Assembly (NCBI RefSeq): GCF_001693815.1
Contig: NZ_MBQD01000027.1
Span: 62,001-126,000, forward strand
DNA from: Tessaracoccus lapidicaptus
GTDB taxonomy: Bacteria > Actinomycetota > Actinomycetes > Propionibacteriales > Propionibacteriaceae
DNA: 64,000 nucleotides
Reading direction: 5' to 3'
A program made the translations under genes and the position numbers. A model generated the notes under the pieces. It had not been told where the DNA came from and did no database searches. It saw only the letters and a program-made list of their open reading frames with translations. Positions 8,001 through 33,363 of this stretch are shown here, one piece after another; position 1 is the stretch's first letter; each line of letters opens with the position of its first letter.

Positions 8001-8017
8001 CTTGACGGAACCTTGAC
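8001..8017 (+). promoter_or_regulatory. tandem CTTGAC box upstream of the beta-propeller gene
   Basis: CTTGAC GGAAC CTTGAC: two identical hexamers, 11-bp period, ending 75 bases before the start codon. It is the cleanest copy of a box found at nine places in the metal island; the spacing is typical for OmpR-family response-regulator dimers. Confidence 0.7.
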
Positions 8018-8092
8018 CGGATGAGCATCGAAAACAGACGAACGAGGCGTCATAGTGGTCCTACATTTCTACATGTTATTAGGAGAAATCAC

Positions 8093-9271
8093 GTGCTCGT
8101 TTCCCACGGCGGTCTGCGCCGCCCCTTGTTCCTCACCGTCTTTGTGATGGCCGCCTTGACGCTGACTGCCTGTGGGCAGGATGCACCGGCTGCCGGTTCG
8201 GCTGCGCCGTTGAGCAGTGCCGCCGCTACGCAGAGCGACGAGGGCGCTGCCGGTGAGGGAGGCACCGGACCTCAGGAGCCGATGGCGATCCGGGGCACGG
8301 TGTGGGTTGCCAGCGAGGACGGTGATTCCTTGTCGGCCATCGACGCGGACACCGGTGTCGTGGTGACCACGGTGAGCGGGATCGAGAGTCCTCACAATGT
8401 TCAGGTGAGCCCTGATGGTGGCACGGTCTGGGCTGTCAGTGGTCACGCCAACGCTGTGGTGGCGCTGGATGCCGCGACGTATGAGCTGTTGGGGACCGCT
8501 CCGACCGGTGTGAGCCCTGCGCATGTGGTCGTTAGTCCTGATGGTGAGCAGGTCCTTGTCACCAACTCGGGGGATGACACGCTGAGCGTCTACGACGCCG
8601 AGTCGCTGGAGCTCCGGGCCACCGTTGACCTCAGTGCCGGGCCGCACGGCCTGCGTCCCACCCCGGACGGTGCGGCGGTGGTCGTGGCCAACACCACAGC
8701 GGGCACTGTCGACGTGGTCGACACTGACACCTATGAAGTCACCGCGACGATCCCGGTCGGGGACTCCCCTCCGCAGGTCGCTGTCGCACCGGACGGGCGG
8801 TACGCCTACGTGAGCCTGGTCGGGTCCAGTTCTGTGGTGAAGGTCGACCTGGTGGAGCAGAAGGTCACGGGATCGGTGTCGGTTCCGTCGCCGCCGGTCC
8901 AGCTGTACCTGACCGCGGACGGGACCCGCTTGCTGTCGGCCGACCAGGGAACCGAGGGCGCCCCTGGCAGTACCGTGTCCGTGATCGACTCGGCCTCCAT
9001 GACCATCGAGGACACCATCGCCGCGGGGGCTGGCCCGCACGGGGTGGTTGTCGAACCGACCGGGCAGCGGGCCTGGGTGACCAACCTCTATGACGACACG
9101 GTCTCCGTGATCGACCTGTCGACCAACCAGACCGTCTCGACTGTGTCTGTGGGCGACAAGCCAAACGGCATCAGCTACAGCCCTCAATCGCCTACGCCCG
9201 GGCCCGCCACTACCAGCGTCACCGTCCCCGACTACGCCACCGGAGCCGAGGGCGGCCACGCGGAGCACTGA
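8093..9271 (+). CDS. YVTN/YncE-type beta-propeller lipoprotein
   Basis: A 392-residue exported lipoprotein: hydrophobic signal with lipobox LTAC, an Ala/Ser/Glu linker, then about seven 40-43-residue propeller repeats with the recurring VSPDG / VTNSGDDTLSVYD type blades. Start GTG 8093 has AGGAG at 8081-8085; the longer frame from 8021 adds a non-secretory N-terminus. It lies behind a tandem CTTGAC box and heads the metal island, ahead of membrane proteins and a two-component system. YncE-like propellers bind DNA or metals in some bacteria; here a role in metal binding or envelope sensing is only inferred. Confidence 0.85.
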   Translation: MLVSHGGLRRPLFLTVFVMAALTLTACGQDAPAAGSAAPLSSAAATQSDEGAAGEGGTGPQEPMAIRGTVWVASEDGDSLSAIDADTGVVVTTVSGIESPHNVQVSPDGGTVWAVSGHANAVVALDAATYELLGTAPTGVSPAHVVVSPDGEQVLVTNSGDDTLSVYDAESLELRATVDLSAGPHGLRPTPDGAAVVVANTTAGTVDVVDTDTYEVTATIPVGDSPPQVAVAPDGRYAYVSLVGSSSVVKVDLVEQKVTGSVSVPSPPVQLYLTADGTRLLSADQGTEGAPGSTVSVIDSASMTIEDTIAAGAGPHGVVVEPTGQRAWVTNLYDDTVSVIDLSTNQTVSTVSVGDKPNGISYSPQSPTPGPATTSVTVPDYATGAEGGHAEH

Positions 9272-9494
9272 CCCGGCTGGGCGACCCTCCATCCTGATCG
9301 ACGGGGCGGTCCTCGAAATGGCAGCCGCTTCTCGGCCCGCAGTTCCACATCCGACATTGGGGGTGACGGAACCGATGCATGGATGGATGTAGAGGGAATC
9401 TTTACTCCGCAGGCGCGAGGATCCTTACACGTGACGGTCAAGCTTGTTGCATCGGGTGGTCACGGGACCACCCACTCGGTCCAGGAGGATAGAC

Positions 9495-9755
9495 ATGATG
9501 GGTTACGGCGGTTTTGGCGGTATGGGGTGGGGCGGCATGGTCGGTATGGTGCTGCTGTGGGCGGTGCTGATCGGTCTGGTGGTGTGGGCGGTGACCAGGC
9601 TCTTGCCAACGCGCCCCTACGGTGGCGGCATGCAGCCCGGGCCGGAGACGCCGGAGGAGATCCTGGATCGTCGGTTCGCCCGCGGCGAGATTGACGTCGA
9701 GACGTATCAGGTGCAGCGGGCTGCGCTGGCCTCGGCCCGGGGTGAACGCCGATGA
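9495..9755 (+). CDS. small membrane protein with SHOCT domain
   Basis: An 86-residue protein. It has a Gly/Met-rich start (MMGYGGFGGMGWGG), one transmembrane segment (VLLWAVLIGLVVWAVTRLL) and a C-terminal SHOCT motif (EEILDRRFARGEIDVETYQ). AGGAGG at 9483-9488 sets ATG 9495. It overlaps the next gene by 4 bases, so the two are translationally coupled. SHOCT proteins of this size are common beside metal-resistance genes in actinobacteria; the function is unknown. Confidence 0.85.
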   Translation: MMGYGGFGGMGWGGMVGMVLLWAVLIGLVVWAVTRLLPTRPYGGGMQPGPETPEEILDRRFARGEIDVETYQVQRAALASARGERR

Positions 9756-10486
9756 CTGGGCGGGGCCTGACTCAGGCCGGCCCACGCTGGCTGGCGTGGC
9801 TGGTGTTGGTGGTCGCGAGCGTGCTGTTCGTAGGCTCGGTGGTCTTGGCCGCTTGGGGAGGTGCTCGCCCTTACCCTGGCGCTGCCGGTGTCGCGCCGAA
9901 CTGGGACGGGCATGGTCCGATGATGGGAGCCAACGGTCGCGGGTGGGTCGGACCGTCGGGCGGAATGATGGGCGCCGGGGGCGGCTCCATGATGAGCGGC
10001 TCCATGATGGGCGGCGGGGTGTGGCTGGCCGGCGACGGCGTCCGGGTCGACACCATCACCCAGGCAAGGGCTCGCGCGACGCAGGCTGCGGCGGTCAGTG
10101 GGCTCATACCGGGCGAGGTGATGCAGTTCACCAACAACTTCTACGTCGAGTTGAGGGACGCCTCCGGTGAGGCCACCACCGAGGTGCTCGTGGACCCGGC
10201 AACCGGCGCGGTGTCCACCGAGTACGGGCCGGCCATGATGTGGAACACCGGCAGCCGGACCGCGGCCATGTCCGCTGATGAGGCCGACACGATCGCCAAC
10301 CGATGGCTGCAGGCAAATGCCGCCGGTGAGACGGCGGCAGGGACGGCCATGGAGTATCCGGGGTACTACACCCTCGACACCGCCTCGGGCGGTACAACAG
10401 TGGGCATGCTGTCGGTCAACGCCACCACCGGGGCGGTCTGGTACCACACGTGGCACGGCGAGTTCGTCGCTGAGGAGGACGCTTGA
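9752..10486 (+). CDS. membrane-anchored Met-rich protein with PepSY-like domain
   Basis: A 244-residue protein: one N-terminal membrane segment (WLAWLVLVVASVLFVGSVVL), then an extracytoplasmic Gly/Met stretch with several MMG motifs (MMGAGGGSMMSGSMMGGG). A PepSY-like region with two repeats follows (TITQARARATQAAA and VLVDPATGAVSTEYG; DTIANRWLQANA and LSVNATTGAVWYH). The methionine cluster suggests Cu(I) binding outside the membrane. Coupled by ATGA to the SHOCT gene and by overlap to the response-regulator gene, it may feed the sensor kinase encoded two genes on; that is inference. Confidence 0.8.
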   Translation: MTGRGLTQAGPRWLAWLVLVVASVLFVGSVVLAAWGGARPYPGAAGVAPNWDGHGPMMGANGRGWVGPSGGMMGAGGGSMMSGSMMGGGVWLAGDGVRVDTITQARARATQAAAVSGLIPGEVMQFTNNFYVELRDASGEATTEVLVDPATGAVSTEYGPAMMWNTGSRTAAMSADEADTIANRWLQANAAGETAAGTAMEYPGYYTLDTASGGTTVGMLSVNATTGAVWYHTWHGEFVAEEDA

Positions 10487-11208
10487 GCGTGGGTTCTGAC
10501 AAGCAGCCGAGCGTCCTGGTGGTCGACGACGAACCCAGCCTGGTCAGGGTGGTGGAGGGCTACCTGACCACGGATGGGTTCACCGTGCGCACCGCCAGCG
10601 ACGGCGAGACGGCGCTCGCACTCGCGCGGGAATCAGAGCCTGACGTGGTTGTGCTCGACCTGGGGCTGCCCGGCATGGACGGCGTCGAGGTGTGCCGGCA
10701 GCTGCGGACGTTCAGCAGCTGCTACGTCCTGATGTTGACCGCGCGCGCCGACGAGGTGGACATGCTCATCGGGCTCGCGGTGGGAGCCGACGACTACGTC
10801 ACCAAACCCTTCTCCGCCCGAGCACTGGTCGCGCGGGTCAGGACGCTGCTACGGCGACCGCGGACCCCAGCCGGCGCCACGGCACAGGAAGCCCCGGAGG
10901 CACGCGTCTTCGGGGACCTGACGGTGGACGTTCCGGCGCGCGAAGTGCGGGTTGCCGGCTCACTGGTGGCGTTGACGCGCACCGAGTACGACCTGCTGGA
11001 GGCGTTGAGCGGGAGTCCCCGCATCGTGTTCACCCGCCAACAGTTGCTCGACCGCGTCTGGAAGGACACGACGGGCTCGGCCGCGAGCGACGAGCACCTT
11101 GTCGACATCCACGTCGGCCACCTGCGTCGCAAGCTCGGTGACGACCCCCGCGACGCCCGCTACGTGCTCACCGTCCGTGGGGTCGGCTATCGGATGGGCC
11201 CGGGATGA
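10483..11208 (+). CDS. OmpR-family response regulator (system 1)
   Basis: A 241-residue regulator. The receiver domain has the acidic pair VVDDE, phospho-acceptor Asp59 (VVLDLGLPGMDG) and the Lys of YVTKPF. The C-terminal winged helix is of OmpR/PhoB type (LTRTEYDLLEALSG, then HVGHLRRKLGDD and VRGVGYRM). Start TTG 10483 follows GAGGAGG; GTG 10489 is an alternative. It is coupled by ATGA to its sensor kinase. It is a candidate to bind the tandem CTTGAC boxes of the island; a close paralogue is encoded at 21433. Confidence 0.92.
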   Translation: MSVGSDKQPSVLVVDDEPSLVRVVEGYLTTDGFTVRTASDGETALALARESEPDVVVLDLGLPGMDGVEVCRQLRTFSSCYVLMLTARADEVDMLIGLAVGADDYVTKPFSARALVARVRTLLRRPRTPAGATAQEAPEARVFGDLTVDVPAREVRVAGSLVALTRTEYDLLEALSGSPRIVFTRQQLLDRVWKDTTGSAASDEHLVDIHVGHLRRKLGDDPRDARYVLTVRGVGYRMGPG

Positions 11209-12338
11209 CCGCCCACCGAAAGGAGCCGCGACTGGCACGACTCGCCCTGGCCCCCCGACTCCTCCTCAACAACGTGCTCGTCATCCTGGCCGGCGCCGGC
11301 ACAGTGCTCGTAGTGGTGCTCCTGGTCACCCCGTCGGTGTTCCAGCTCCACCTGGACAGGGCGGGCGTCGCGACCGACTCAGACGCCCTCCAACACATTC
11401 TCATGGCGGTTCAGGACGCCGTCCTCGTGGCCGTGGGGATCGGCATCGCTGCCGCGGCGTTCACGGCCGCAACAATCAGCTGGGTGGTGGCCCGCCGGCT
11501 CGCCGCTCCTGTGTGGGACGCGGCTGACACCAGCCGTCGACTGGCGGACGGAGACCTGGACGCCCGCGTGCTCGATCCCGGCATGGGCCCCGAGTTCGCC
11601 ACCCTGGCCGCGTCGGTTAACGAGCTGGCCGAGCGACTCCAGGCCACCGAGGACACCCGCCGCGCACTCACCGCCGACCTGGCCCACCAGCTCCGCACGC
11701 CCATCGCCTCCATCGAAGCCACCATCGAGGCCGTCCGCGACGACGTGCTGCCCGCCGACCACCAAACCTGGGACACCCTCGCCGCCCAGAGCACCCGGCT
11801 CCGCCGCCTCGTCGCCGACCTCGAGGTCGTCTCCCGCGCCGAGGAACGTCAACTGCTCCTCAGCGCCGAACCCGTTCCTGTCCCCAGCTTGATCGACGCG
11901 GCCGTTGGGGCGCATTCGGAGTGCTACCGGTCCGCCGGCGTCCGGCTTGACGCCTCCGTCGCTGACAGCACTCCTCGCGTGCTGGTCGACCCCGAACGAA
12001 TCCAGGAAGTCCTCGGCAGCCTGCTCGACAACGCGCTCCGCTGCACCCCGGCCGGCGGCACCGTCACCATGGCCGGTCGGCCCAGCCCGTCCGGGGACGC
12101 GGCGGTCATCACAGTGACCGACACCGGCATCGGCCTCACCCCGGCCGAAGCGGGGCAGATCTTTCGCCGCTTCGCGAAGGCTGCGGACAGCCCTGGCTCC
12201 GGCCTTGGGCTGACCATCGCCCGCGCCATCGTCGAGGCCCACCACGGGACCCTCACCGCGGACAGTGCCGGCCCCGGCACCGGCGCCCGATTCACGATCA
12301 CCCTCCCTGCCAGCGGTTCCCGGCGAACCCGCCACTGA
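11205..12338 (+). CDS. sensor histidine kinase (system 1)
   Basis: A 377-residue membrane kinase. Two transmembrane segments (about residues 18-45 and 68-95) enclose a very short extracytoplasmic loop, followed by a HAMP region, the H-box LTADLAHQLRTPIAS (His161), the N-box DNALRCTPAGG, and G-boxes DTGIGL and SGLGLTIARAIVEAHHG. The small external loop suggests it senses through the membrane or a partner such as the Met-rich PepSY protein upstream. It pairs with the regulator at 10483. Confidence 0.92.
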   Translation: MTAHRKEPRLARLALAPRLLLNNVLVILAGAGTVLVVVLLVTPSVFQLHLDRAGVATDSDALQHILMAVQDAVLVAVGIGIAAAAFTAATISWVVARRLAAPVWDAADTSRRLADGDLDARVLDPGMGPEFATLAASVNELAERLQATEDTRRALTADLAHQLRTPIASIEATIEAVRDDVLPADHQTWDTLAAQSTRLRRLVADLEVVSRAEERQLLLSAEPVPVPSLIDAAVGAHSECYRSAGVRLDASVADSTPRVLVDPERIQEVLGSLLDNALRCTPAGGTVTMAGRPSPSGDAAVITVTDTGIGLTPAEAGQIFRRFAKAADSPGSGLGLTIARAIVEAHHGTLTADSAGPGTGARFTITLPASGSRRTRH

Positions 12339-13163: not shown

Positions 13164-13778
13164 CTATAGAAGCTGCAACGTAGTCAGGCAGGTGGGGCCC
13201 TCAGCGTCGGAGGAGAAGCGGCTCTCGGCGCGCTTCCCGTCCTTGATGACGACGACCGTGCCCGCCACGTCCTTGGGGATCCAGAAACCGACGAACCCGT
13301 TGGCGTAGGTGGTCGCGTCCTCGTCGACGAGCACCTCACCTGAATCGGTGGTGATCGTCACCTTCACGTCCGCCTCAGCCAATTCCCCTCGGCAGGTGCC
13401 GAGGTTGTGGAAGTAGCACTCATGAGTGGTGGTCTCGTACGGCGCGATCGACAGGTAGAACTCATCACCGTCGAGGGGCATCGAGGCCTCGATGGTGCCG
13501 TCGCTGAGCAGTACCTCGTCGTAGCGCACCGACGCGGCCAGCGGCAGCGGGCGCTGAGCGTCGAGCTGATCCAGCGCCTCCACGACCTCGGCGCCGCTCT
13601 TCCCCACCAACCCGTGCGCCGCAAGCAACGCCCCCGCGTCCCCCGCCGCGACGCTCGGCGCCGCCGTCGACACGGAATCTCGCGGGGTCTCGGCAACCTC
13701 CGGGGTTGAGCAAGCCGACAGCGCCAAGACGGCGGCGAGCGGCACAGCGATACGAATGGTCAGATGATGGCGGCGCAT
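13164..13778 (-). CDS. cueP: CueP-family periplasmic copper-binding lipoprotein
   Basis: A 204-residue lipoprotein: start ATG at 13778 with GGAG upstream, hydrophobic signal and lipobox LSAC. The CueP family is recognised from the C-terminal half: a cysteine cluster HECYFHNLGTCRGE, the segment TYANGFVGFWIPKD, and the terminal DAEGPTCLTTLQLL. CueP binds copper in the extracytoplasmic space and, in Salmonella, links copper handling to superoxide defence. Three conserved cysteines are present. A tandem CTTGAC box lies about 120 bases upstream on this strand. A longer frame from 13859 would add residues in front of the signal peptide and is not preferred. Confidence 0.9.
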   Translation of the reverse strand: MRRHHLTIRIAVPLAAVLALSACSTPEVAETPRDSVSTAAPSVAAGDAGALLAAHGLVGKSGAEVVEALDQLDAQRPLPLAASVRYDEVLLSDGTIEASMPLDGDEFYLSIAPYETTTHECYFHNLGTCRGELAEADVKVTITTDSGEVLVDEDATTYANGFVGFWIPKDVAGTVVVIKDGKRAESRFSSDAEGPTCLTTLQLL

Positions 13779-13900
13779 GGGTCTCCAGGAGCTATGTGTC
13801 TTCAAGGAAGTCGTGGTGTCCGCGATGTACCGCGGCACCGTTTCGGACATGTCGTCCAACCAGAATGCCGCAATCGCTGAGTGCGCTAGTCACACGCTTA

Positions 13901-13917
13901 GTCAAGATTAGATCAAG
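13901..13917 (-). promoter_or_regulatory. tandem CTTGAC box upstream of cueP
   Basis: Read on the minus strand: CTTGAT CTAAT CTTGAC, 11-bp period. It points toward cueP and lies in the divergent region shared with the CmtR-like gene. Confidence 0.65.
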
Positions 13918-21309: not shown

Positions 21310-21353
21310 CCTTCCATCCTCAACCCTGTAGATCAGGGAACGGTTCAGGCGGG

Positions 21354-21370
21354 GTCAAGGTTCGGCCAAG
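21354..21370 (-). promoter_or_regulatory. tandem CTTGAC box upstream of the glutaredoxin-CcdA-redoxin operon
   Basis: Minus-strand reading CTTGGC CGAAC CTTGAC, 11-bp period. It lies between this operon and the divergent two-component system 2 (start 21433), so it may serve both. Confidence 0.65.
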
Positions 21371-21432: not shown

Positions 21433-22140
21433 ATGGCTGAGCCCCGCAGGTCGAGTGTGTTGGTGATCGACGACGAGCGCCCGCTGGCAGGGATCGTCGC
21501 CTCCTACCTCAACAAGGCAGGCTTCGACACCGCCCTGGCCTACACCGGCCCGGACGGCGTCTCCTCGGCGCAAGACCTGGACCCCGACGTCATCATCCTT
21601 GACCTGGGCCTACCCGGCATCGACGGCATCGAGGTGTGCCGCCAGATCCGGCTGTTCTCCGACTGCTACATCCTGATGCTGACCGCCCGGGCCGACGAGG
21701 TCGACAAACTGATCGGCTTGTCGGTGGGCGCCGACGACTACCTGACCAAACCGTTCAGCCCCCGCGAGCTCATCGCCCGCGTCAACACCGTGCTGAGACG
21801 CCCGCGCCGCCAGACCCACGTCGCACAACTGACCGCGCCGCGCGAGTTCGGGCGGCTGCAGGTGGACGCGGAGGGCCGCGACGTGTGGGTCGACGACCAG
21901 CAGGTGGGGCTCACCCGCACCGAGTTCGACATCCTCGACGCACTCTCAGCCCGACCCAACGTGGCGCTGAGCAGGCGGCAGATCATCGACGCGGTGTGGG
22001 GCCCGGGCTGGGCCGGCGACGACCACGTCGTCGACGTCCATGTGGCAAATCTCCGCAAGAAGCTCGACGACCCGCCCGCGGAACCGCGCTACATCCTCAC
22101 CGTCCGCGGAGTCGGATACCGGATGGGACCAGGGCGATGA
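21433..22140 (+). CDS. OmpR-family response regulator (system 2)
   Basis: A 235-residue regulator with receiver signature VIDDERP, phospho-acceptor Asp57 (IILDLGLPGIDG), Lys in YLTKPF, and a winged-helix output domain (LTRTEFDILDALSA; HVANLRKKLDD; VRGVGYRMGPG). It is strikingly similar in order and wording to the regulator at 10483, so the two are paralogues. ATG 21433 has no clear ribosome site and AATAAT lies just upstream, suggesting a leaderless transcript. Coupled by ATGA to its kinase. Confidence 0.92.
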   Translation: MAEPRRSSVLVIDDERPLAGIVASYLNKAGFDTALAYTGPDGVSSAQDLDPDVIILDLGLPGIDGIEVCRQIRLFSDCYILMLTARADEVDKLIGLSVGADDYLTKPFSPRELIARVNTVLRRPRRQTHVAQLTAPREFGRLQVDAEGRDVWVDDQQVGLTRTEFDILDALSARPNVALSRRQIIDAVWGPGWAGDDHVVDVHVANLRKKLDDPPAEPRYILTVRGVGYRMGPGR

Positions 22141-23276
22141 CCAGGCTGCGCGGTCTCGTGGGCCGGATGCGGTGGGGCACCCGCACCTTCCTCACCCAGG
22201 CCCTGGTGGTGGCAGTCGGCGTGATCACCGCCGCCCTGGTCGCTGTGGTGGTCGGGCCCCCACTGTTCCACGAACACCTGCAACAACTCGGTCACGCGAA
22301 CGGAACTGCCGAGATGGGGCATGTGGAGCAGGCGTTCCTCGACGCTGGCGTCAGATCGTTGGGCATCGGACTGGTGGTGGCGCTCACGCTGGCTATCGGC
22401 CTGGCCTGGATCGAGACCAGGCGGCTGCGCCGCCCACTGGAACAACTGACCGCAGCCGCCGCCCAGCTCGAGGCAGGCGACTACACCGCCCGCGTCCCCC
22501 AGAGTGGAACAAGTCCCGAGTTCACGGCCGTCGCCGACGCGTTCAACGACATGGCCAGCCGCCTGGATTCCACCGAGACCAGCCGACGGCGGCTGCTCTC
22601 CGACGTGGCGCACGAGCTTCGCACCCCTCTCGCAACCCTGACCGCTGAGCTGGAGGCCGTCATCGACGACGTGGTCCCCTGGGACCACGACAGCCAACAG
22701 CTGCTCACCCTCCAGGCCGCCCGGCTCAAGAAGATCGCTTCCGACCTGGACGACGTGTCCCGCGCCGAGGAACGCCGATTCACCCTCGACACCCAAACCC
22801 AGGCGGTGTGGGACCTCATCGAGCCCGCCGTCGCCTCCGTCGCCACCCGATACCAGGCCAAGGGAGTCACGTTGTCTGCGGACTCCGACCCGGGCTTCGT
22901 CGCAGCGGATCCGCAGCGGGTGGGACAGATCCTGGGCAACCTCCTCGACAACGCGCTGCGGCACACCCCCATCGGGGGGATCGTGCGCCTCAGCGCGCGC
23001 GAGTCCAGGGATGAGGTGGTGATCATGGTCACCGACACCGGCGATGGCCTCACCCCGGAGCAGCTCTCGAAGGTGTTCGACCGGTTCTACCGCGCTGACA
23101 CGGCACGGGCCCGCGATGCGGGCGGTTCCGGGATCGGGCTGACCATCGCCCGCAGCCTCGCCCTGGCTCACGGCGGCTCACTGACAGCCGCCAGCCCCGG
23201 CCCCGGACACGGCTCGATCTTCACCCTGCACCTGCCCACCGCGCCAGCACCTGAGCGGGTCTTGATCGATTCTTGA
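22137..23276 (+). CDS. sensor histidine kinase (system 2)
   Basis: A 379-residue membrane kinase: two membrane segments (FLTQALVVAVGVITAALVAV and LGIGLVVALTLAIGLAWI) around a short loop containing HEHLQQLGHANGTAEMGHVE, a His/Met/Glu-rich sequence that could bind metal. Then HAMP, H-box LLSDVAHELRTPLAT (His159), N-box DNALRHTPIGG, G-boxes DTGDGL and GSGIGLTIARSLALAHGG. The system-1 kinase has a shorter, metal-ligand-poor loop. Its last bases overlap a tandem CTTGAC box for the next gene. Confidence 0.92.
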   Translation: MTRLRGLVGRMRWGTRTFLTQALVVAVGVITAALVAVVVGPPLFHEHLQQLGHANGTAEMGHVEQAFLDAGVRSLGIGLVVALTLAIGLAWIETRRLRRPLEQLTAAAAQLEAGDYTARVPQSGTSPEFTAVADAFNDMASRLDSTETSRRRLLSDVAHELRTPLATLTAELEAVIDDVVPWDHDSQQLLTLQAARLKKIASDLDDVSRAEERRFTLDTQTQAVWDLIEPAVASVATRYQAKGVTLSADSDPGFVAADPQRVGQILGNLLDNALRHTPIGGIVRLSARESRDEVVIMVTDTGDGLTPEQLSKVFDRFYRADTARARDAGGSGIGLTIARSLALAHGGSLTAASPGPGHGSIFTLHLPTAPAPERVLIDS

Positions 23277-23277
23277 C
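23261..23277 (+). promoter_or_regulatory. tandem CTTGAC box upstream of the DUF305 gene
   Basis: CTTGAT CGATT CTTGAC, 11-bp period, overlapping the end of the kinase gene and lying about 88 bases before the DUF305 start. Confidence 0.65.
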
Positions 23278-23364: not shown

Positions 23365-24018
23365 ATGACACGCACTAAGCGGATCACTGCCACTTTGGCG
23401 GGGCTGGTCCTGACGGCCACCCTGGCGGCCTGCGCGGACCAGGGCGCCACTCCCCCGACGGCGACCACCTCCCCGACAGGCAGCACCTCCGCCACGGCCA
23501 CTGAGTCCGAGTCGGCGTCGGCGAGCGCCTCATCTGAGGTGGCCGCCGAGCACAACGACCAGGACACCACGTTCGCGCAGATGATGATCATCCATCACGA
23601 GGGCGCCATCGAAATGTCCCAGCTGGCGATCGAACGCGCCGAAACACCCGAGGTCGTGGCCCTCGCGGAGCGCATCGCCGAGGCACAAGGCCCTGAGATC
23701 GAGGAGATGACCGCCTGGCTCAGCGCCTGGGGTGAAGACGTCTCCCCCGGTGGGCATGGCGGTATGGACATGGGCGGGATGGACATGAACGGCATGAGCC
23801 AGGAGGAGATGATGACCCAACTCGACGGCATGTCCGGCGCCGACTTTGATCAGGCGTTCCTCGAGGCCATGATCGCCCACCACGAGGGTGCGATCGGGAT
23901 GGCCGAGCAGCAGCTGGCCGAGGGCCAGAACCCCGACGCGGTGGCGCTGGCGGAGAAGATCATCGCCGACCAGCAGACTGAGATCACCGAGATGCAGGAG
24001 ATGCTCACCAGCCTCTGA
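23365..24018 (+). CDS. DUF305 (CopM-like) lipoprotein
   Basis: A 217-residue lipoprotein (lipobox LAAC, then an acidic Ser/Thr linker). The DUF305 four-helix fold appears as two repeats with paired histidines, FAQMMIIHHEGAIEMSQLAI and FLEAMIAHHEGAIGMAEQQL. Between them is a Met/Gly/His-rich loop (GGHGGMDMGGMDMNG). DUF305 proteins such as CopM bind Cu(I) outside the cytoplasm. A tandem box upstream and a strong terminator downstream make it a single-gene unit. Confidence 0.9.
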   Translation: MTRTKRITATLAGLVLTATLAACADQGATPPTATTSPTGSTSATATESESASASASSEVAAEHNDQDTTFAQMMIIHHEGAIEMSQLAIERAETPEVVALAERIAEAQGPEIEEMTAWLSAWGEDVSPGGHGGMDMGGMDMNGMSQEEMMTQLDGMSGADFDQAFLEAMIAHHEGAIGMAEQQLAEGQNPDAVALAEKIIADQQTEITEMQEMLTSL

Positions 24019-24444: not shown

Positions 24445-24891
24445 TCATCGGGTGGGCGAGGCGCTGTGGTGCCCCTCGTGGTCTTCGGCGCCGGTCGTGC
24501 TGGCGGAAGCGGCCGGTGTGGGGGTGTCTTGTTCGCTGGAGGTGGCGGGGTTGAACAGTGGCCCGATCACGAAGGCGGACAGGGCGAACAGGCCGGTGAA
24601 CACCGCTATGCCAATCGCAGGGGCCTTCCAGGTGCTGAACCGGCGATGCAGCCGTCGCAGCAGGGGGATGCTCAACGCCAACCCGACCACGTAGAGCAGC
24701 GTGTTGCCGAGGAATCCCGTCAGGAGCGCGGCCCCGGCCAGGAACCCGATGTGGTGCATCACGTGCGGCGCCAGGCCCATCAACGCACCGAGGGTGGCCC
24801 GTGTGCCGGCCCAGAGCGCACCCCAGAAGCCGCGACGCCCCCCTGTCACGCCTGGGGTGGTATCGGTGATCGTGTCCATCGCGCCGCTCAC
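24445..24891 (-). CDS. membrane protein with His-rich tail, unknown family
   Basis: A 148-residue protein with about three membrane segments. The first holds the possible metal ligands LAPHVMHHIGFLAGAALLTG; the second is NTLLYVVGLALSIPLLRRL; the third AIGIAVFTGLFALSAFVIGP. The C-terminal tail ends in EDHEGHHSAS. GTG 24891 overlaps the lgt-like stop by 4 bases; ATG 24879 is an alternative. No family is recognised. The His/Met motif in the membrane and the neighbours suggest a role in metal transport or sensing (inference). Confidence 0.7.
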   Translation of the reverse strand: MSGAMDTITDTTPGVTGGRRGFWGALWAGTRATLGALMGLAPHVMHHIGFLAGAALLTGFLGNTLLYVVGLALSIPLLRRLHRRFSTWKAPAIGIAVFTGLFALSAFVIGPLFNPATSSEQDTPTPAASASTTGAEDHEGHHSASPTR

Positions 24892-25688
24892 CGTCCGACC
24901 GGATGGGGGCTGGGGACAGCCGACGAGGGGTCGGCGGCGGAGACGTTTGAGACTGGAGCAGCAGGATGGAACGTGTCTCGGAGGATCAGGGCGGCGCCGA
25001 GGATGATGCTGGCGATGCCGATCAGCTGCGCCTCTGTGAGATCGAGCACGACGTGTGGGTTGATGCGGACCATCTCGGCGAGGAGGCGGGCCGCTCCGCT
25101 GAGCATCAGATAGGACCCGAACACGGCCACCGGCCGCAGTCTGCGGCCCAGCGCCCACAAGATGCCGGCGATCAGGAATGCACCGGCCGCTTCATATAGC
25201 TGGACCGGGTGCACCGGAACGTCGACCGGCACCACTCCGTTGGGGAACGCCATCCCCCAGGGCAGATCGGTGGGCGTGCCGTAGGTGCCGTCCCCGGCCA
25301 GGAAGCAGCCGATCCGGCCGATGCCGTAGGCCACCGACAGCGGCGCCGCCATCGCGCCCGCCACCCGTCCAAGGGGGAGGTCGTGGCGTCGGGTCATCAC
25401 GATCACCGCGATCGACCCGGCGATCAGGCCCCCGTACCAGACGAACCCGGACCCGCCGAACAGGTGCCAACTGAAGTTGTCCCAGTTCGCGATCAGGTAG
25501 TACACCTTCGCGCCGACGAACCCCCACACCGTCGCCCACAAAGCGATCGAGTGCGCCAGCTCCTTGTCGTAACCGATCCGCGTGAACGCGCGCCCCAACA
25601 GGAACGCGCCGACCAGCAGCGCCAGCGCCTTACTCAGCCCATAGGACTGGATCCCCACACCAAATATCGAGAACACCTCAGGCCACAC
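24888..25688 (-). CDS. lgt: prolipoprotein diacylglyceryl transferase paralogue
   Basis: A 266-residue protein of about seven membrane segments with the Lgt plan: GGSGFVWYGGLIAGS, GIGRIGCFLAGDGTYG and VHPVQLYEAAG. In canonical Lgt the third motif reads GRIGNF; here Cys replaces Asn and the following residues differ, as in the Lgt-like paralogues found outside the housekeeping locus. It would lipidate exported preproteins; the island encodes at least four lipoproteins (propeller, CueP, TlpA, DUF305). First gene of a leftward operon with a tandem CTTGAC box about 100 bases upstream. Confidence 0.85.
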   Translation of the reverse strand: MWPEVFSIFGVGIQSYGLSKALALLVGAFLLGRAFTRIGYDKELAHSIALWATVWGFVGAKVYYLIANWDNFSWHLFGGSGFVWYGGLIAGSIAVIVMTRRHDLPLGRVAGAMAAPLSVAYGIGRIGCFLAGDGTYGTPTDLPWGMAFPNGVVPVDVPVHPVQLYEAAGAFLIAGILWALGRRLRPVAVFGSYLMLSGAARLLAEMVRINPHVVLDLTEAQLIGIASIILGAALILRDTFHPAAPVSNVSAADPSSAVPSPHPVGR

Positions 25689-25758
25689 AGCCCACTCCCA
25701 TCATCGAAACTGTTCCAGGCGCGCGACGTGACCGCGGGGCCTCACTGCCCAGTCTCAA

Positions 25759-25825
25759 CCGGTCACCTCAAGCAACGAGCAGGACCCGGACAAGGTTTGG
25801 TCAAGATCCCAGTCCACGTGCCCGG
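25759..25825. repeat. diverged intergenic repeat, copy 1 (copy 2 at 29665-29729)
   Basis: About 65 bases beginning CCGGTCAC and ending CCCGG are recognisably shared with 29665-29729, including CAACGAGyAGGACCCGGACA and the AAGATCC that ends the reverse box. Both copies lie upstream of copper genes and contain a minus-strand tandem box, well kept here and degenerate in copy 2. Confidence 0.6.
25789..25805 (-). promoter_or_regulatory. tandem CTTGAC box upstream of the lgt-like operon
   Basis: Minus-strand reading CTTGAC CAAAC CTTGTC, 11-bp period, pointing toward the lgt-like gene. Confidence 0.65.
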
Positions 25826-25846: not shown

Positions 25847-25863
25847 CTTGACCGAAGCCTGAC
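25847..25863 (+). promoter_or_regulatory. tandem CTTGAC box upstream of the HMA/P-ATPase gene
   Basis: CTTGAC CGAAG CCTGAC, 11-bp period. With the minus-strand box 42 bases away it forms a divergent regulatory region. The same hexamer pair with the same spacer (CGAAG) recurs at 30129. Confidence 0.65.
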
Positions 25864-25909
25864 CACCTGACCGTGACTTTCGGATTGCACCGTGCCTACC
25901 CTGATGACA

Positions 25910-25924
25910 TACCCCTTTGGGGTG
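25910..25924 (+). promoter_or_regulatory. CsoR-like operator
   Basis: TACCC-CTTTG-GGGTG matches the TACCC-N5-GGGTA palindrome bound by actinobacterial CsoR, with one mismatch in the last base. It lies between the tandem box and the frameshifted copper ATPase gene. Confidence 0.6.
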
Positions 25925-26314: not shown

Positions 26315-26821
26315 ATGAAGAGTCAAACCAGGGTCCTAGAGGCCGGTGGCCTGCACTGGGCCACCTCGGAATCAGTGATCGAGAAGACGTTACTAGGGGT
26401 ACCCGGCGTGCTGGCCGTCGAGGCCAGCGCCGTCTCCCAGACCGCGACGGTCACCTACGACCCGAACCAGACCTCGGTCGCCCAACTGGTCGGCTGGGTC
26501 AATGACTGCGGCTACCACTGCACCGGGCAGTCGGTACCTAGCCACACCATGGCGGAACCGGTCTCGACCGACCCCCACATCGGCCACGAACGGCACACCG
26601 GCCACGGGGGTGGGGATGAGGCTGGCGGATCCGCGCAGGCGGTGATGGGCCACGGCGGGCATGGTGGGTCGATGGTGGACATGGTGCGAGACATGCGCAA
26701 CCGTCTCCTGGTCGCCGCGGTCCTGTCGGTGGTCATCTTGTTCTGGTCGCCGATCGGGCGGGAGGTCTGGGGTTCACCGTGCCGGCACCCTTCGGGCTAC
26801 GCGACGACGTCTTCTCTCTGA
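26315..26821 (+). pseudogene. N-terminal part of a frameshifted copper P-type ATPase (HMA-like domain, His-rich linker, first TM)
   Basis: The frame encodes an HMA-like ferredoxin-fold domain (VLEAGGLHWATSESVIEKTL ... VTYDPNQTSVAQLVGWVNDC) in which the usual CxxC is absent and a Cys-x3-Cys (CGYHC) sits at the end of the domain. A linker rich in His and Gly ([24 protein letters not shown]) and one membrane segment ([18 protein letters not shown]) follow. Around 26766 the sense switches to the +2 frame: inserting one C in GAGGTCTGGGG restores [12 protein letters not shown] and joins it to the body at 26779. So this is the start of one gene broken by a 1-base deletion, real or a sequencing error. 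Confidence 0.8.
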
Positions 26822-28710
26822 TCTTGTCCCTGCCGGTGGTGTTCTACTCGGCGTGGATCTTCTTCGACGGGGCCTTCCGGGCGCTCCGCGCGAGGACGCT
26901 GGACATGATGGTCCTGGTGGCGGTCGCGGTCGGGGCAGGCTGGTTGTACAGCGTGGTGGTCACGTTCACCGGCGGGGGTGAGGTCTTCTACGAAGCCGCC
27001 ACGGTCCTGACCACCTTCGTCCTGCTCGGGCACTGGCTGGAGATGCGGGCCCGTGGCGGCGCGACCGACGCTGTGCGCACGCTGCTCGAACTCGCGCCCT
27101 CCCAGGCAGTCGTGCTCCGGGACGGTCAGCCCGTGGAGGTCCCGACCTCCGAAGTCGTCACCGGTGACCTGCTACTGGTACGGCCGGGGGCGAAGATCCC
27201 AGTCGATGCGGTGGTGGAGGAGGGGGAGTCCGAAGTCGACGAGTCGATGGTGACGGGAGAGTCCATGCCGGTGGAGAAGGCGCCCGGCGCGGACGTGATC
27301 GGTGCCTCGATCAACACCACCGGCACCTTGCGGGTCCGCGCCGCAAGAGTCGGCGCGGACACCGCGTTGGCGCAGATCGTCAAGATGGTCCAGGAGGCTC
27401 AGAACTCCAAGGCCCCGGGCCAGCGCCTGGCCGACCGGGCCGCGTTCTGGCTGGTGTTCGTCGCCCTCATCGGCGGCACTGTTACCTTCGCGGTGTGGAT
27501 GCTCGCCGGCGTCGGCGTGGCACAGGCGATGCTCTTCGCCATCACCGTCGTGGTCATCACATGCCCCGACGCCCTCGGTCTGGCGACCCCAACTGCGATC
27601 ATGGTCGGTACCGGGATGGGCGCCAAGCGGGGAGTGTTGTTCAAGAACGCCACCGCCCTCGAGGGGATGGCGAGGATCGACACGGTGGTGATGGACAAGA
27701 CGGGCACCCTGACCAAGGGGGAGCCTGAGGTCACCGACGTTGTCGCGGCGGGGATGGGCGAGGATGAGATGCTGGCCTTGGTCGCTGCCGTCGAACGTGA
27801 GTCTGAACACCCGTTGGCCCGCGCCATCGACCGCCGAGCCGCCGAGCGCGGCGTGCCCGTGCTCTCCGTGAGCGAGTTCCTCAACGTCCCAGGCCACGGT
27901 GCAACTGCCACGGTCGACGGCCGACGTGTCCTGGTGGGGAACCTCCGCCTGATGGCCCGGGAGAACGTCGAGCTCGGCGACCTGGCCGTGAGCCGTGACG
28001 AGTTGGCCGCATCGGGGCGCACCGCGGTGCTCGTCGCGGTGGATGGGCGCGCGGTTGGTGTCATCGCATTGGCCGACGCCGCGCGGGACACTGCTGCTGC
28101 CGCTGTCGCCGCCCTGCACGAGTCCGGGATCGAGGTCGTCATGCTGTCCGGCGACAACGAGGCCACCGCCCTGCGTATCGCTGACCAGCTCGGCATCGAC
28201 ACCGTCATCGCCGAGGTTCTGCCTGGGGACAAGGCGAACAAGATCGCCGAGTTGCAGCAGGCCGGAAAGAGGGTCGCGATGGTGGGTGATGGCGTCAACG
28301 ATGCGCCTGCGTTGGCCCAGGCCGACATCGGTATCGCGATCGGTGCCGGGACGGACGTGGCGATCGAGACTGCGGATATCGTCCTGATGCGCTCCGATCC
28401 TTTGGACGTCTCCGTCGCACTGCGCATCGGCAAGGGAACCGTAGGGAAGGAGCGTCAGAACCTGGCCTGGGCCATCGGTTACAACGTCATCGCGCTGCCG
28501 ATCGCCGCCGGGGTGTTTTACCCCGCTTTCGGTCTGATGCTGCGCCCAGAGATCGCCGCCCTGTCGATGTCGGGCTCCACGGTCATCGTCACCGTCAATG
28601 CCCTGCTGCTCAAACAGCTCAGGCTGCCCGCGCAGCAGGCCCCGGCCGCGCCGCAAGGCCAGGCCCGGGAGCCGGAGCCCACCGCTCCGGTGCCGTCCGG
28701 CATCCGCTGA
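26779..28710 (+). CDS. copper-type P1B ATPase body with CPD motif (downstream part of a frameshifted gene)
   Basis: 643 residues in frame with a GTG that is unlikely to be the original start. Motifs: membrane segments from [20 protein letters not shown], actuator TGESMPV, membrane metal motif Cys262-Pro-Asp264 ([16 protein letters not shown]) instead of CPC, phospho-acceptor DKTGTLT, nucleotide site ESEHPLARA, hinge [10 protein letters not shown]. The C-terminal membrane pair ([20 protein letters not shown] and [15 protein letters not shown]) is the P1B pattern. It exports copper or a related metal; the CPD variation changes one presumed ligand. Controlled by a tandem box and a CsoR-like site upstream. 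Confidence 0.85.
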
Positions 28711-29729: not shown

Positions 29730-29730
29730 T

Positions 29731-29747
29731 CTTGTCGGGATCTTGAC
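29731..29747 (+). promoter_or_regulatory. tandem CTTGAC box upstream of the HMA protein gene
   Basis: CTTGTC GGGAT CTTGAC, 11-bp period, 86 bases before the GTG start. Confidence 0.65.
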
Positions 29748-29832
29748 CCCACCCAGACCGGTTCCCGACACCGCGGGGGGCACCATCGAACATGAACACG
29801 CGAAACCGACCAGGAAGAGAGGGTGATTCGAC

Positions 29833-30144
29833 GTGACGACGATGACACAGGCCACCTACGGGGTGCGTGGGCTCAGCTGTTGGCGCTGCATGATCAGCGC
29901 CGTGGAGGCGGTCCGGGCCTTGCCCGGGGTGCATACCGTCGGGATGGATTTGGAGCCGCACGGGGAGTCGCTGTTGACGCTGGCCCCGGCCGGCGCCGTG
30001 ACCAGCGCCCAGGTCCAAGCCACCCTCGACCGCTCCGGGTTCGAACTGACCCGACGCCGGCGCCGGCCCCGACCCAGCCGGCTCCGACATGCCCTCACCA
30101 CAGCCCCTGTGGACGACGGCCGGGAAATCTTGACCGAAGCCTGA
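29833..30144 (+). CDS. HMA-domain copper chaperone-like protein with basic tail
   Basis: A 103-residue protein. Residues 7-72 form an HMA fold with the metal motif [20 protein letters not shown] (Cys-x2-Cys) and the domain end [14 protein letters not shown]. An Arg-rich tail ([13 protein letters not shown]) follows, which is unusual for CopZ-type chaperones and could bind nucleic acid or membrane. GTG 29833 follows AGGAAGAGAGG. It probably shuttles Cu(I) to the ATPase encoded next. The tandem box of that ATPase overlaps its last codons. Confidence 0.85.
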
Positions 30145-30145
30145 C
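30129..30145 (+). promoter_or_regulatory. tandem CTTGAC box upstream of the cupredoxin-ATPase-YHS gene
   Basis: CTTGAC CGAAG CCTGAC, identical over all 17 bases to the box at 25847; overlaps the 3' end of the HMA protein gene. Confidence 0.7.
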
Positions 30146-30191
30146 CTCCTCTGGGTCGTTTCCGGACCTGCGCGGGTCTACGCTGGATACA

Positions 30192-30206
30192 TACCCCCCC
30201 AGGGTA
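30192..30206 (+). promoter_or_regulatory. CsoR-like operator
   Basis: TACCC-CCCCA-GGGTA: perfect half-sites of the TACCC-N5-GGGTA palindrome known for CsoR, 34 bases before the ATPase start codon. csoR itself is the next gene after the ATPase. Confidence 0.75.
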
Positions 30207-30239
30207 CTGGGTGGGAGTCGAGTGGAAGTGGAGATTGTG

Positions 30240-33029
30240 ATGCTCTGGCTGGTCATAGGTGGGGCGGTGGTCCTGACCGGGTTGCTGTTGTGGTTCTTCT
30301 TCGGCCCGAAACGGGCAGGGAAGGTCCGCATCGAAGATGGTGTTCAGGTGGTGGAGGTGACTGTCGACGGGGGCTACAACCCGGGGGTGATCGACGGGGT
30401 GCGTCCGGGGATGCCGGTGCGGATCATGTTCGACCGCCGAGAGGGTGGCGAGTGCACCTCGCGGGTGGTGATGCCGGACTTCAAGGTCAACGCGAGCCTT
30501 CCCGCGTACCGGACCACGGCCGTCGAGTTCACCCCGACTGAGGCCGGCGAGTTCCGCTTCGCATGCGGCATGAACATGGTCTCCGGTCTGATCCGCGTCA
30601 CCGGCGACCCCCACACCGCACCCACCCCCACCACAGCATCGGATCATCAGCACGCGCAGGTGGCCGCCTCCCCGGCAGTGGCCGGTCTTGCGACCGACGG
30701 CGCCGATGATGAGGCGGAGCGGGCTGCGGAGATCCGGGACCTGACCCGGCGGGTGATCATCGGCGCTATCCTCACCGCCCCGGTGCTGATCGCGGTGATG
30801 GCCGTCGAGCTGTTCGGCGCCACCTGGGTGCCTGAGATCTTGATGAGTCCCTGGTTGCAGCTGGCGCTGATTGCGCCGGTGATGCTGTGGTCGGGCTGGC
30901 CGATCCACCGCGTGGGGTGGCGTGCCCTGTCGCACCGCACCGCAGACATGAACTCGCTGATCACGCTCGGCACCGTCGCGGCGTTCGGTTACAGCCTGGT
31001 GGTGACCTTCGCCCCCGGACTACTGCCTGAGGAGCTGCGGCAGGTGTACTTCGAAGCCGTCGGGGTGATCATCACGTTGATCCTGCTCGGCCGGCTCCTG
31101 GAAACCAAAGCCAAGGCCGGCACCGGTGAAGCGATCCGTAAGCTGATCGGTCTGCAGCCCCGCACCGCCCGCGTCCTACGCGAAGATGTGGAGCTGGAGA
31201 TCCCGGTCGAGGACGTCGTGGTCGGGGATGTGATCGTGATCCGCCCCGGGGAGAAGATGCCCGTTGACGGTGAGGTGATTCACGGATCCTCCGCGGTCGA
31301 CGAGTCGATGGTGACCGGGGAGTCGATCCCTGCGGCCAAGACGGTCGGCGACACGATCATCGGCGCAACCATCAACGCCACCGGGGCACTGCGCTATGTC
31401 GCCACCAAGGTCGGCTCCGATACCTTGCTCGCCCAGATCATCAAACTGGTCCGTGAGGCCCAGGGCTCGAAGGCCCCCATCCAACGGCTGGTGGACAAGG
31501 TCTCGAGCTACTTCGTCCCGGTCGTGATCATCATCGCGGTGTGGACGCTGGCGATCTGGCTGCTGGTGGGTCCCCCGCCTGTGTTCGTGTTTGCGCTCGT
31601 CGCCGCCGTCTCGGTCCTGATCATCGCCTGCCCCTGCGCCTTGGGGCTCGCGACCCCGATGTCGATCACCGTGGGCACCGGCAAGGGAGCCGAACACGGC
31701 ATCCTGATCCGCTCCGCTGAAGCGCTGGAAACCGCGCACAAGCTTGATGCGATCATCCTCGACAAGACCGGCACCATCACCAAGGGTGTACCGACCCTCA
31801 CCGACGTCGCCACCGTGGCAGCGTTCGATGAGAACCAGCTCCTCGGCTGGGTCGCCGCTATCGAGAACAGCTCCGAGCACCCCCTGGCGGCGGCGATCGT
31901 CACCGGCGCCACCGACCGCGGTCTCACCCTGGGCGAGGTCACTGACTTCGACTCGGTCACCGGGCAAGGCGTCCGCGGCCACGTCGACGGCCACGACGTC
32001 CTGATCGGCAACCGGCGACTTCTCGACGAAAATGGCATCAGTACCGACACGCTGCGGCCGCTGCATGACGCGCTCGCAGCAGGGGGCAAGACGCCGATGC
32101 TGGTGGCCGTCGACGGGCTCCCCGCGGGAATCGTGGCGGTCGCCGACACCATCAAGGACGGCTCCCCCGCCGCGGTCGCGGCCCTCCAGGCACGCGGCAT
32201 CGAGGTCATCATGATGACTGGCGACAACCGGGCAACCGCCGCCGCGATCGCCTCCCAGGTCGGGATCCGTCGCGTGGTCGCCGAAGTGATGCCCGCCCAC
32301 AAGGCCGCCGAGGTCCGACGGCTCCAGGACGAAGGCAAAATCGTCGGAATGGTCGGCGACGGCATCAACGACGCCCCCGCCCTCGCGCAGGCAGACGTCG
32401 GCTCCGCGATCGGCACCGGCACCGACGTGGCCATCGAATCCTCCGACATCACCCTGATCTCCGGCGCCCTGTCAGGGGTGGTCACCGCCGTTGACCTGTC
32501 CCGGGCCACCATGCGCAACATCAAACAGAACCTGGTGTTCGCGTTCCTGTACAACACCCTCGGCATCCCCATCGCCGCCGGTCTGCTCTACCCCGTCTTC
32601 GGGATCCTGCTCAGCCCCATGGTCGCCGCCGCAGCCATGGCGCTGTCCTCACTGTCGGTGGTCACCAACGCCAACCGGCTCCGCCGCTGGGCACCACACC
32701 CCATCGACCAGACCCCCACCCTCGGCACCCCCGTCACTCCCGTCGTCGAGATCGGCGGCGAGACCCCCACCACCCAGCACCACACCACAGGAAAGGACAC
32801 CCCCATGTTCGGCAAGAAGACCCCCGCCGCCACCCACATCGATCCCGTCTGCGGCATGAAGGTCAAGCCCGCCAGCGCGGCCGCCACCCGCACCATCGCG
32901 GGGACCACGATCTACTTCTGCTCCACCCACTGCGCCGAAGCCTTCGACGCGGACCCCGCCCGCTACGGACACCCCCAGATCGACGGCGAGCACCACCACG
33001 AGCCCACCCCCGCCCCGCACCACCACTAG
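30240..33029 (+). CDS. copA: cupredoxin-CopA (P1B-1) copper ATPase-YHS fusion protein
   Basis: A 929-residue fusion. Residues 2-22 form a membrane anchor; ~30-122 a cupredoxin-like domain with Cys72, Cys109, Met111 and Met113 ([10 protein letters not shown]). Residues ~150-830 are a Cu(I) ATPase: TGESIPA, Cys464-Pro-Cys466, Asp508 in [29 protein letters not shown]-terminal helix pair with [18 protein letters not shown]. Residues 856-929 are a YHS domain ([28 protein letters not shown]) and a His-rich tail. GGAG at 30230-30233 fits ATG 30240; GTG 30237 or 30222 are alternatives. The YHS part is preceded by an in-frame Met (32805) with AGGAAAGGA before it, so it may also be made alone. Cytosolic copper efflux under tandem-box and CsoR control. 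Confidence 0.9.
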
Positions 33030-33058
33030 GCGCCGAACCAGACCAGGTCCAGGACGAC

Positions 33059-33340
33059 ATGACCAGCAACCCACAGCGTCCGGAACTCATCGGCCAACTC
33101 GCCGTGATCGAAGGCCACATCCGCGGCATCGCCCGCATGGTCTATCAGGACGCCAACTGCATCGAGATCCTCACGCAGACCTCAGCAGTCACCGGCTCGC
33201 TGCGCTCAGTCGCCCTGGACCTGGTCGACAACCACCTCCAGCACTGCCTCACCCAGGCCATCGACTCCCCCGACCCCGCCTACCGCGACGCCAAGGTCGC
33301 CGAAGCCTCCACAGCCATCGCCCGCCTCGTCCGCAGCTGA
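33059..33340 (+). CDS. csoR: CsoR-family copper-sensing repressor
   Basis: A 93-residue all-helical repressor of the DUF156 family (LAVIEGHIRGIARMVYQD). The metal ligands of CsoR are visible: Cys in DANCIEILTQ, His and Cys in VDNHLQHCLTQ. Cu(I) binding releases it from TACCC-N5-GGGTA operators, of which two occur upstream of the two copper ATPases in this window. ATG 33059 begins 29 bases after the ATPase stop, so it lies in the regulated operon and should be autoregulated. Confidence 0.93.
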   Translation: MTSNPQRPELIGQLAVIEGHIRGIARMVYQDANCIEILTQTSAVTGSLRSVALDLVDNHLQHCLTQAIDSPDPAYRDAKVAEASTAIARLVRS

Positions 33341-33346
33341 ACCGTT

Positions 33347-33363
33347 CTTGATCAGAGGTTGAC
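33347..33363 (+). promoter_or_regulatory. tandem CTTGAC box upstream of the DUF2933-like gene
   Basis: CTTGAT CAGAG GTTGAC, 11-bp period, 7 bases after the csoR stop and 71 bases before the next start. Confidence 0.6.

Follow-up and report, generated by a model that had tools for sequence, protein, structure and literature searches.

In a 64-kb stretch of the Tessaracoccus lapidicaptus genome (C27:62001-126000, hereafter the window), the sequence CTTGAC-N5-CTTGAC, a 17-bp direct repeat with an 11-bp period that we call the box, recurs at nine promoters of a copper gene island. Judging from sequence comparisons, we consider it highly probable that this box forms the high-affinity portion of an operator read by an OmpR-family response regulator encoded in the island, RR2, and that RR2 and its sensor kinase HK2 activate these promoters in response to copper over phased repeats; the repressor CsoR may act in addition at two ATPase promoters. 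The repeated box itself is confirmed: all nine copies that an earlier note on this DNA had listed by position and strand are present (Table 1).

Copies of the box, their promoters and their genes

The box at 8001 alone is exact, seven others carry one mismatch each in the pattern scan, and the box at 33347 carries two. With at most one mismatch allowed, the 64 kb contain 8 boxes where 0.14 are expected, and none of 100 shuffled sequences reaches 8; with at most two mismatches there are 14 against 4.15 expected, a number that again no shuffle out of 100 reaches. These 14 comprise the nine boxes, a third 11-bp repeat joined to each of the boxes 21354 and 29731 (at 21343 and 29742, respectively), and three matches elsewhere (35133, 45734 and 53528). 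A search of positions 7000-36000 gave 0 Rfam matches.

As had also been claimed, every box points at a gene, although the box at 25847 does so from about 450 bp before the HMA gene. By eye, the DUF2933-like gene fills this same space (25864-26315) in two related loci, L135 and L146; in the window that gene sits elsewhere, with its own box at 33347. The surroundings of the boxes are otherwise unlike each other, which upholds the argument against simple duplication for most copies, but 25847 and 30129 share an identical 17-mer, and there duplication is possible.

Nor is the motif spread at random density over the genome, the outcome that the earlier note had singled out as telling against a regulon: the 3.09 Mb (27 contigs) hold 16 matches when a single mismatch is tolerated (reversed pattern: 6), and profile matches fall chiefly on copper promoters. 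Eight of the 16 are in the window, three are at copper genes on C2 and C21, and five are on C5, C11 (two) and C22 (two); these last five look like background, C5 perhaps excepted. The box at C21:150780 lies upstream of a second cueP, and those at C2:8564 and C2:9088 are copies of the redoxin and DUF305 promoters. C2 carries a second, partial copy of the island (L009, 8618-9103), in which the RR2 copy runs up to the start of the DUF305 box. Because this RR2 copy is without its DNA-binding domain, and our queries found no kinase in the 20-kb C2 stretch, the boxes kept there would need a regulator from elsewhere.

A first profile of 43 positions, which is partly circular because 10 of its 47 sites come from this genome, returns 13 hits at E≤1, namely all nine window boxes, the three boxes on C2 and C21, and C5:13861. 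A blind profile, built from 40 sites of other genomes only, finds 11 places at E≤1 in the 3.09-Mb genome, 10 of which are copper promoters (seven window boxes and the three on C2 and C21), with C5:13861 as the eleventh. Scoring covered 150 of the roughly 1,400 first-look candidates in each search (150 of 1,356 for the blind profile). C5:13861 is a possible thirteenth site; judged by eye, its neighbours (L011 4880) are the gene of a hypothetical secreted protein on one side and, on the other, a divergent gene for a His-rich protein, behind which a 4Fe-4S membrane protein is encoded.

The promoters share more than the box. An xAnnnT hexamer, noticed by eye and then computed, stands 32-33 nt past the box at all nine window sites. 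In a non-redundant set of 48 copper-gene sites, 10 of them from this genome and 38 from others, it occurs at offset 32 or 33 in 36, compared with a mean of 2.8 and a maximum of 9 for shifted windows; the individual conserved positions are A at +50 (26/48), T at +54 (28/48), A at +37 (30/48) and C at +22 (32/48). No such -10 is seen in the 14 non-redundant sites without a labelled gene, a small set. The matrix of the repeat unit peaks clearly at 0, +11 and +33 (5.0 standard deviations, SD) and weakly at +22 (3.6 SD), and three promoters (L198, L205 and L206) have an exact CTTGAC at +33. Judged from these counts, the 17-bp box is the stronger part of a longer site of 11-bp-phased repeats that runs to the -10. 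In our reading its four repeats would take up a pair of regulator dimers, of which the second covers the -35 region; this reading is weakest at the third repeat.

Genes behind the boxes of related loci were labelled by tblastn with the window proteins and the C2 multicopper oxidase, so that the labels follow the window's own copper-island set. Over 60 loci, four pairs of which overlap, 100 of 115 boxes stand on the same strand within 900 bp ahead of a labelled gene. In a set of 43 loci, which leaves out L125 and the box-less L149-L159 and retains one overlapping pair (L137/L206), a labelled homologue follows downstream within 900 bp for 92 of the 107 boxes and within 300 bp for 81; for positions drawn at random from these loci the corresponding shares are 14.6% and 6.0%. 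The classes found in the 60 loci are the glutaredoxin operon (24), ATPase B (18), DUF305 (15), HMA (12), CueP (9), Lgt (9), propeller (5), DUF2933-like (4), oxidase (3) and ATPase A (1).

Exact matches to TCTTGAY-N4-YCTTGAC occur in 85 of 293 genomes, other families included, and are largely TCTTGACG forms, which we took for coding background and did not accept as copies of the box. The TCTTGAYC form is found in 26 genomes, all of one family, f1 (counted by eye). Six of these 26 have no regulator match at 1e-60, an absence that is unsafe because that search scored 9 candidates per genome; two of the six (G119 and G139) have a box at copper genes, and in the other four (G121, G005, G012 and G282) our queries found none there. 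The box may reach beyond the family: a Nitriliruptorales metagenome-assembled genome (L017) has CTTGAC boxes, one of them before a DUF302-like protein (named by eye), and a regulator with an RR2-type helix.

The probable reader of the box and the proposed mechanism

RR2 has an OmpR-family receiver and a winged-helix output domain and is paired with a HisKA kinase, as in CopR-type systems. Its start lies 62 bp from the box at 21354-21370, which is upstream of it and belongs to the divergent glutaredoxin operon. A search of solved structures returned general OmpR-family relatives only. Of 293 genomes sampled from the order, 95 have a match to RR2 at 1e-60. Within 1.5 kb on either side of the regulator gene, 30 loci (that of the window and 29 relatives) hold 32 boxes and 0 reversed controls, with a box in 20 of the 30; in 40 loci of 12-20 kb around RR2-like regulators there are 75 boxes against 6 reversed controls, and 28 of the 40 have a box. 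When all hexamers at 11-bp spacing are scanned in 19 box-bearing loci, CTTGAC leads (18/19; reversed 2), a circular result to the extent that the grouping already knew the boxes. On this comparative evidence RR2 very probably reads the box.

The mechanism that we propose begins with the short His-rich loop of HK2, which would sense extracytoplasmic copper and lead to phosphorylation of RR2. Phosphorylated dimers would then bind head to tail on the 11-bp-phased repeats, the first on CTTGAC-N5-CTTGAC and the second on degenerate repeats at +22 and +33 that would replace a poor -35 element, with some 11 bp between the end of the last repeat and the -10. This arrangement would recruit RNA polymerase to the nine island promoters and, in trans, to the C2 and C21 copies. 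At the two Cu-ATPase promoters CsoR may repress from a palindrome beside the -10, so that full export would need both signals.

The loop of HK2 (FHEHLQQLGHANGTAEMGHVEQAF) contains four His and one Met and is a short extracytoplasmic loop of the CopS type, with membrane segments judged by eye. By eye, the motif FHxH is present in 31 of the 50 listed kinases (two rows being partial), and HK1 types have FQLH. The kinases beside CTTCA boxes (L149-L154, L159 and L211) mostly have another residue for the first His of FHxH, which the kinases next to CTTGAC boxes possess, again by eye. Together with the gene set, the loop points to copper as the signal; silver is also possible. Palindromes resembling TACCCC/GGGGTA, which we take to be the CsoR operator type, overlie the two ATPase promoters (at 25910 for box 25847 and at 30192 for box 30129), among 10 rows of a loose window scan, and an ATACCCC-like sequence also lies past the -10 of several related ATPase promoters. 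CsoR and the two palindromes suggest a second, cytoplasmic input.

Several observations weigh against this account. There is no excess of matches over chance in the window at three or fewer mismatches (44 found, 43 expected), so that the finding rests on near-perfect copies, and the box at 33347, with its two mismatches, is not secured by the pattern alone; support for it comes from its -10 and from both profiles (E 0.014 with the partly circular one, just E 0.38 with the blind one). At E≤1 the blind profile misses 13901 and 25847, and C5:13861 scores like a true site with no obvious copper gene beside it. For fifteen of the 107 boxes no labelled gene follows. The third and fourth repeats are degenerate, with negative mean unit scores, and the peak at +22 barely exceeds stray peaks at +5 and +53 (3.3 SD) and at +6 and +17 (2.6 SD). 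As for the regulator, a paralogue in the same genome (C24) has an RR2-type helix with no box within the 19 kb taken, the regulator of L101 has such a helix with no box within 1.5 kb, and in Cryobacterium sp. Y11 (L065 11360) a box with one mismatch stands near a regulator just 36% identical to RR2.

The earlier note had left it open whether one or both of the island's two-component systems read the box. The comparative genomics above supports the system at 21433/22137; that the second regulator, RR1 (10483), does so instead, or that both do as a shared or mixed-dimer system, is unlikely in our view. RR1 is 56-57% identical to RR2 and is encoded inside the island, behind the box at 8001; its close relatives (L128, L129, L146 and L147) are in every case accompanied by an RR2-type gene and by CTTGAC boxes, and a locus that has such a relative and lacks an RR2-type gene was not found; and the sole regulator of L160, a locus with one box, is nearer to RR1 (63% identity) than to RR2 (59%). 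Against this, 24 of the 28 box-bearing loci have no regulator at least 70% identical to RR1, and the recognition helix of RR1, HLVDIHVGHLRRK, is of the type found in regulators beside a different box, with CTTCA units, which in turn has no copy with at most one mismatch in the window to serve as RR1's own site. RR1 thus probably does not read the CTTGAC box. Upstream of the RR1 operon (window 9271-9752) there is a ATCTTTAC...ATCnTTAC-like pair, similar in L146 and not seen in L147, which is a possible RR1 site.

TTGAC resembles the core of a -35 element, and the hexamers might be ordinary sigma-70 -35 elements of plain promoters, repeated by chance. We regard this as very improbable, since in nine of nine promoters the -10 lies 32-33 nt past the box, a distance too great for the second TTGAC to serve as the matching -35, and since the 11-bp doubling is conserved across relatives. 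Equally hard to credit is a one-component copper regulator as reader, be it CsoR or a MerR/CueR-type protein encoded elsewhere, for whose gene no search of the genome was made: the csoR gene (33059) and the palindromes at two promoters would favour it, but the palindromes are separate from the box and accompany only two of the nine promoters, and the box is a direct repeat that goes with an OmpR-family gene. Least probable of all is that the copies spread by duplication of promoter DNA and have no function. The 17-mer common to 25847 and 30129, and the resemblance of the C2 copies to 21354 and 23261, would agree with it; however, 55 of 94 sites remain after thinning of pairs at least 55% identical outside the hexamers, it is mainly the repeats and the -10 that are conserved, and most copies share no flanking DNA.

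Sister sites with CTTCA units

Not every relative of RR2 is accompanied by the CTTGAC box. In 11 box-less loci scanned at 11-bp spacing, GC-rich CGACCG leads (10; reversed 7), and TGAAGA and GCCGCC share second place (8 each; reversed 0 and 7, respectively); a 12-bp spacing, a multiple of the codon, takes some GC-rich hexamers to 11/11. Across 16 loci, 17 copies of TGAAGA-N5-TGAAGA with no more than one mismatch were counted (reversed pattern 0); the RR2-type loci, 429 kb in all, have 3. In the window this pattern has no match at this threshold, and the half-site of Corynebacterium glutamicum CopR, CTTCA (TGAAGATTTnnTGAAGATTT), is absent in that form; of three matches at two mismatches, two are the boxes 13901 and 23261 read from the other strand and one (61061) lies outside the island.

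With two plasmids added, there are 19 TGAAGA sites. Read as TCTTCA, 11 precede a labelled gene (DUF305, oxidase, HMA, CueP, glutaredoxin, propeller and, in one case, the regulator itself); read as TGAAGA, 6 do so, the gene being the regulator in 5 of these. Some sites precede a labelled gene in both readings and some in neither. In the TCTTCA reading, xAnnnT lies 33-34 nt on in 12 of 18 non-redundant sites (shifted windows: mean 0.5, at most 3), and once the one-base shift in the frame of the pattern is allowed for, the CTTCA sites have the same -10 distance as the CTTGAC sites. In the sequences compared, the units of the two sister sites differ by one letter, CTTGA vs CTTCA; the regulators that go with CTTCA include kin of C. 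glutamicum CopR.

On a tree of 59 regulators (near-copies dropped), the CTTGAC label needs 9 changes, compared with a mean of 18.4 after shuffling. The recognition helices differ in the 45 rows counted, which leave out 6 rows from multi-regulator loci and 8 without a box: helix position 2 is V in 28 of 33 CTTGAC rows and 0 of 12 CTTCA rows, and position 8 is A in 30 of 33 and 1 of 12, respectively. These counts are uncorrected for kinship and include two loci (L204 and L205) fetched for having boxes; three of the six rows left out are RR1-type, have the CTTGAC label only via a neighbouring RR2-type gene, and would count against the trend. Exceptions are L160 and L224, HL... helices with a CTTGAC box. 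A kinship-corrected test of helix against letter yields just 2 supported independent pairs, too few. In a contig scan with a single protein, four regulators stand out as close (49-62%) among the 80 loci listed. Three of them (L015, L016 and L018) lack a box within one mismatch; L017, with the helix GHVVAVHVANLRGKL, has three such boxes.

A single family of copper regulators may have switched its operator letter (CTTGA/CTTCA) several times while its targets, the 11-bp phasing and the spacing to the -10 stayed the same, with both helix types (RR2 and RR1) able to coexist in one cell; we put this forward tentatively, as slightly more doubtful than an even chance. If true, it would offer a natural series in which a response regulator and its whole multi-promoter regulon switch specificity together.

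Relation to known systems and features of the window

The nearest known system is CopRS of C. glutamicum. Two reports describe a proven direct-repeat CopR site with a TGAAGA unit (CTTCA) and an 11-bp period (PMC3353115, PMC3140484), a CopS with a short loop of three His and two Met (PMC3140484), one CopR site in that genome, and a cop region of pLEW279b that is 97% alike in DNA (PMC3140484, PMC3353115). The pLEW279b regulator is 56.3% identical to RR2. The likenesses are an OmpR-family regulator and a short-loop kinase beside copper genes and the 11-bp direct repeat, to which we can add the -10 distance that CTTCA sites near other relatives keep. The differences are the unit, CTTCA there and CTTGA here, the number of sites, one as reported there against nine in one island and three elsewhere, and the helix, RIVDVHIGNLRRK in the pLEW279b regulator vs HVVDVHVANLRKK in RR2. 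Our verdict is that this is probably a CopR-like copper regulon with an operator changed by one base, which would work like CopRS and is related to it.

Other systems are less similar. The proteobacterial CusR/CopR/SilR family (TIGR01387) shares the OmpR family and the metal genes, but RR2 scores 163.3 bits, below the curated cut-off of 279.2, and the CusR site is palindromic. PhoB also uses 11-bp direct repeats, with the last repeat of the pho box about 10-11 bp before the -10; here, however, the genes are copper genes, the units are CTTGAC, and RR2 reaches 191 bits against the PhoB-model cut-off of 296. For CsoR regulation the window has the csoR gene and, as candidate operators, the TACCCC...GGGGTA-like palindromes at the two ATPase promoters, but this is a separate element that leaves the other seven promoters unexplained.

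A limited literature search found no published account of a CTTGAC copper box; one paper has CTTGAC as a primer. So far as such searches show, the new elements are the unit that differs by one letter, the promoter model of repeats plus -10, and how large the regulon is. With such an operator and promoter model, the regulons of copper islands in a whole bacterial family could be read from sequence; the letter change, if confirmed, would supply matched sets of regulators and operators in which specificity and the entire regulon changed together; and the two ATPase promoters may be a case of two-input control of copper export, by two-component activation and CsoR repression.

Table 1. Boxes, promoter elements and genes in the window (positions are those of the window; empty cells, nothing recorded).
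Feature	Position	Strand	Basis
Box, 0 mismatches, propeller lipoprotein promoter	8001..8017	+	pattern scan
-10-like hexamer CATAGT, 33 nt past box	8051..8056	+	offset count
Box, 1 mismatch, cueP promoter; -10-like CATTCT 13862-13867	13901..13917	-	pattern + offset
Box 21354-21370 (1 mismatch) with third repeat at 21343 end; glutaredoxin-CcdA-redoxin operon	21343..21370	-	
-10-like GAGGAT of glutaredoxin operon promoter	21316-21321	-	
Box, 1 mismatch, DUF305 promoter; -10-like TAGCCT 23311-23316	23261..23277	+	
Box, 1 mismatch, lgt-like operon promoter; -10-like GAGACT 25751-25756	25789..25805	-	
Box, 1 mismatch, HMA and Cu-ATPase A promoter; -10-like TACCCT 25897-25902	25847..25863	+	
CsoR-type palindrome TACCCC-TTT-GGGGTG, directly past -10	25910..25924	.	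window scan
Box 29731-29747 (1 mismatch) with weak third repeat; small HMA protein promoter; -10-like CACCAT 29781-29786	29731..29758	+	
Box, 1 mismatch, Cu-ATPase B promoter; -10-like TACGCT 30179-30184	30129..30145	+	
CsoR-type palindrome TACCCC-CCC-AGGGTA, directly past -10	30192..30206	.	window scan
Box, 2 mismatches, DUF2933-like gene promoter; -10-like CACAGT 33396-33401	33347..33363	+	
RR2, OmpR-family response regulator, proposed box reader	21433..22140	+	
HK2, sensor kinase, short loop FHEHL...MGHVEQAF between two membrane segments (judged by eye)	22137..23276	+	
RR1, response regulator paralogous to RR2, recognition helix of other class	10483..11208	+	
HK1, sensor kinase of RR1; loop FQLHL, Gln in place of first His of HK2	11205..12338	+	
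CsoR-family repressor	33059..33340	+	PF02583
Beta-propeller lipoprotein (listed open reading frame from 8021; probable start near 8093)	8093..9271	+	
CueP-family copper protein	13164..13859	-	
Glutaredoxin-like, CcdA-like, redoxin operon (first two weak Pfam matches)	19425..21309	-	
DUF305 protein	23365..24018	+	
Lgt-like protein	24888..25688	-	
HMA protein and Cu-ATPase A	26315..28710	+	
Cu-ATPase B with cupredoxin-like and YHS domains	30231..33029	+	
DUF2933-like small protein (name from the earlier note; 0 Pfam or NCBIfam matches)	33435..33689	+	

Because its -10 lies at 8051-8056, the propeller gene probably starts near the GTG at 8093 rather than at 8021. Among the copper genes, and without a box, there are an ArsR-type regulator, a P-type ATPase and a cation-diffusion transporter (13975-17299; the latter two named by eye). 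Beside the island (36026-40166), open reading frames resembling a TraG-type coupling protein and a peptidoglycan hydrolase suggest, by eye, a conjugative element.

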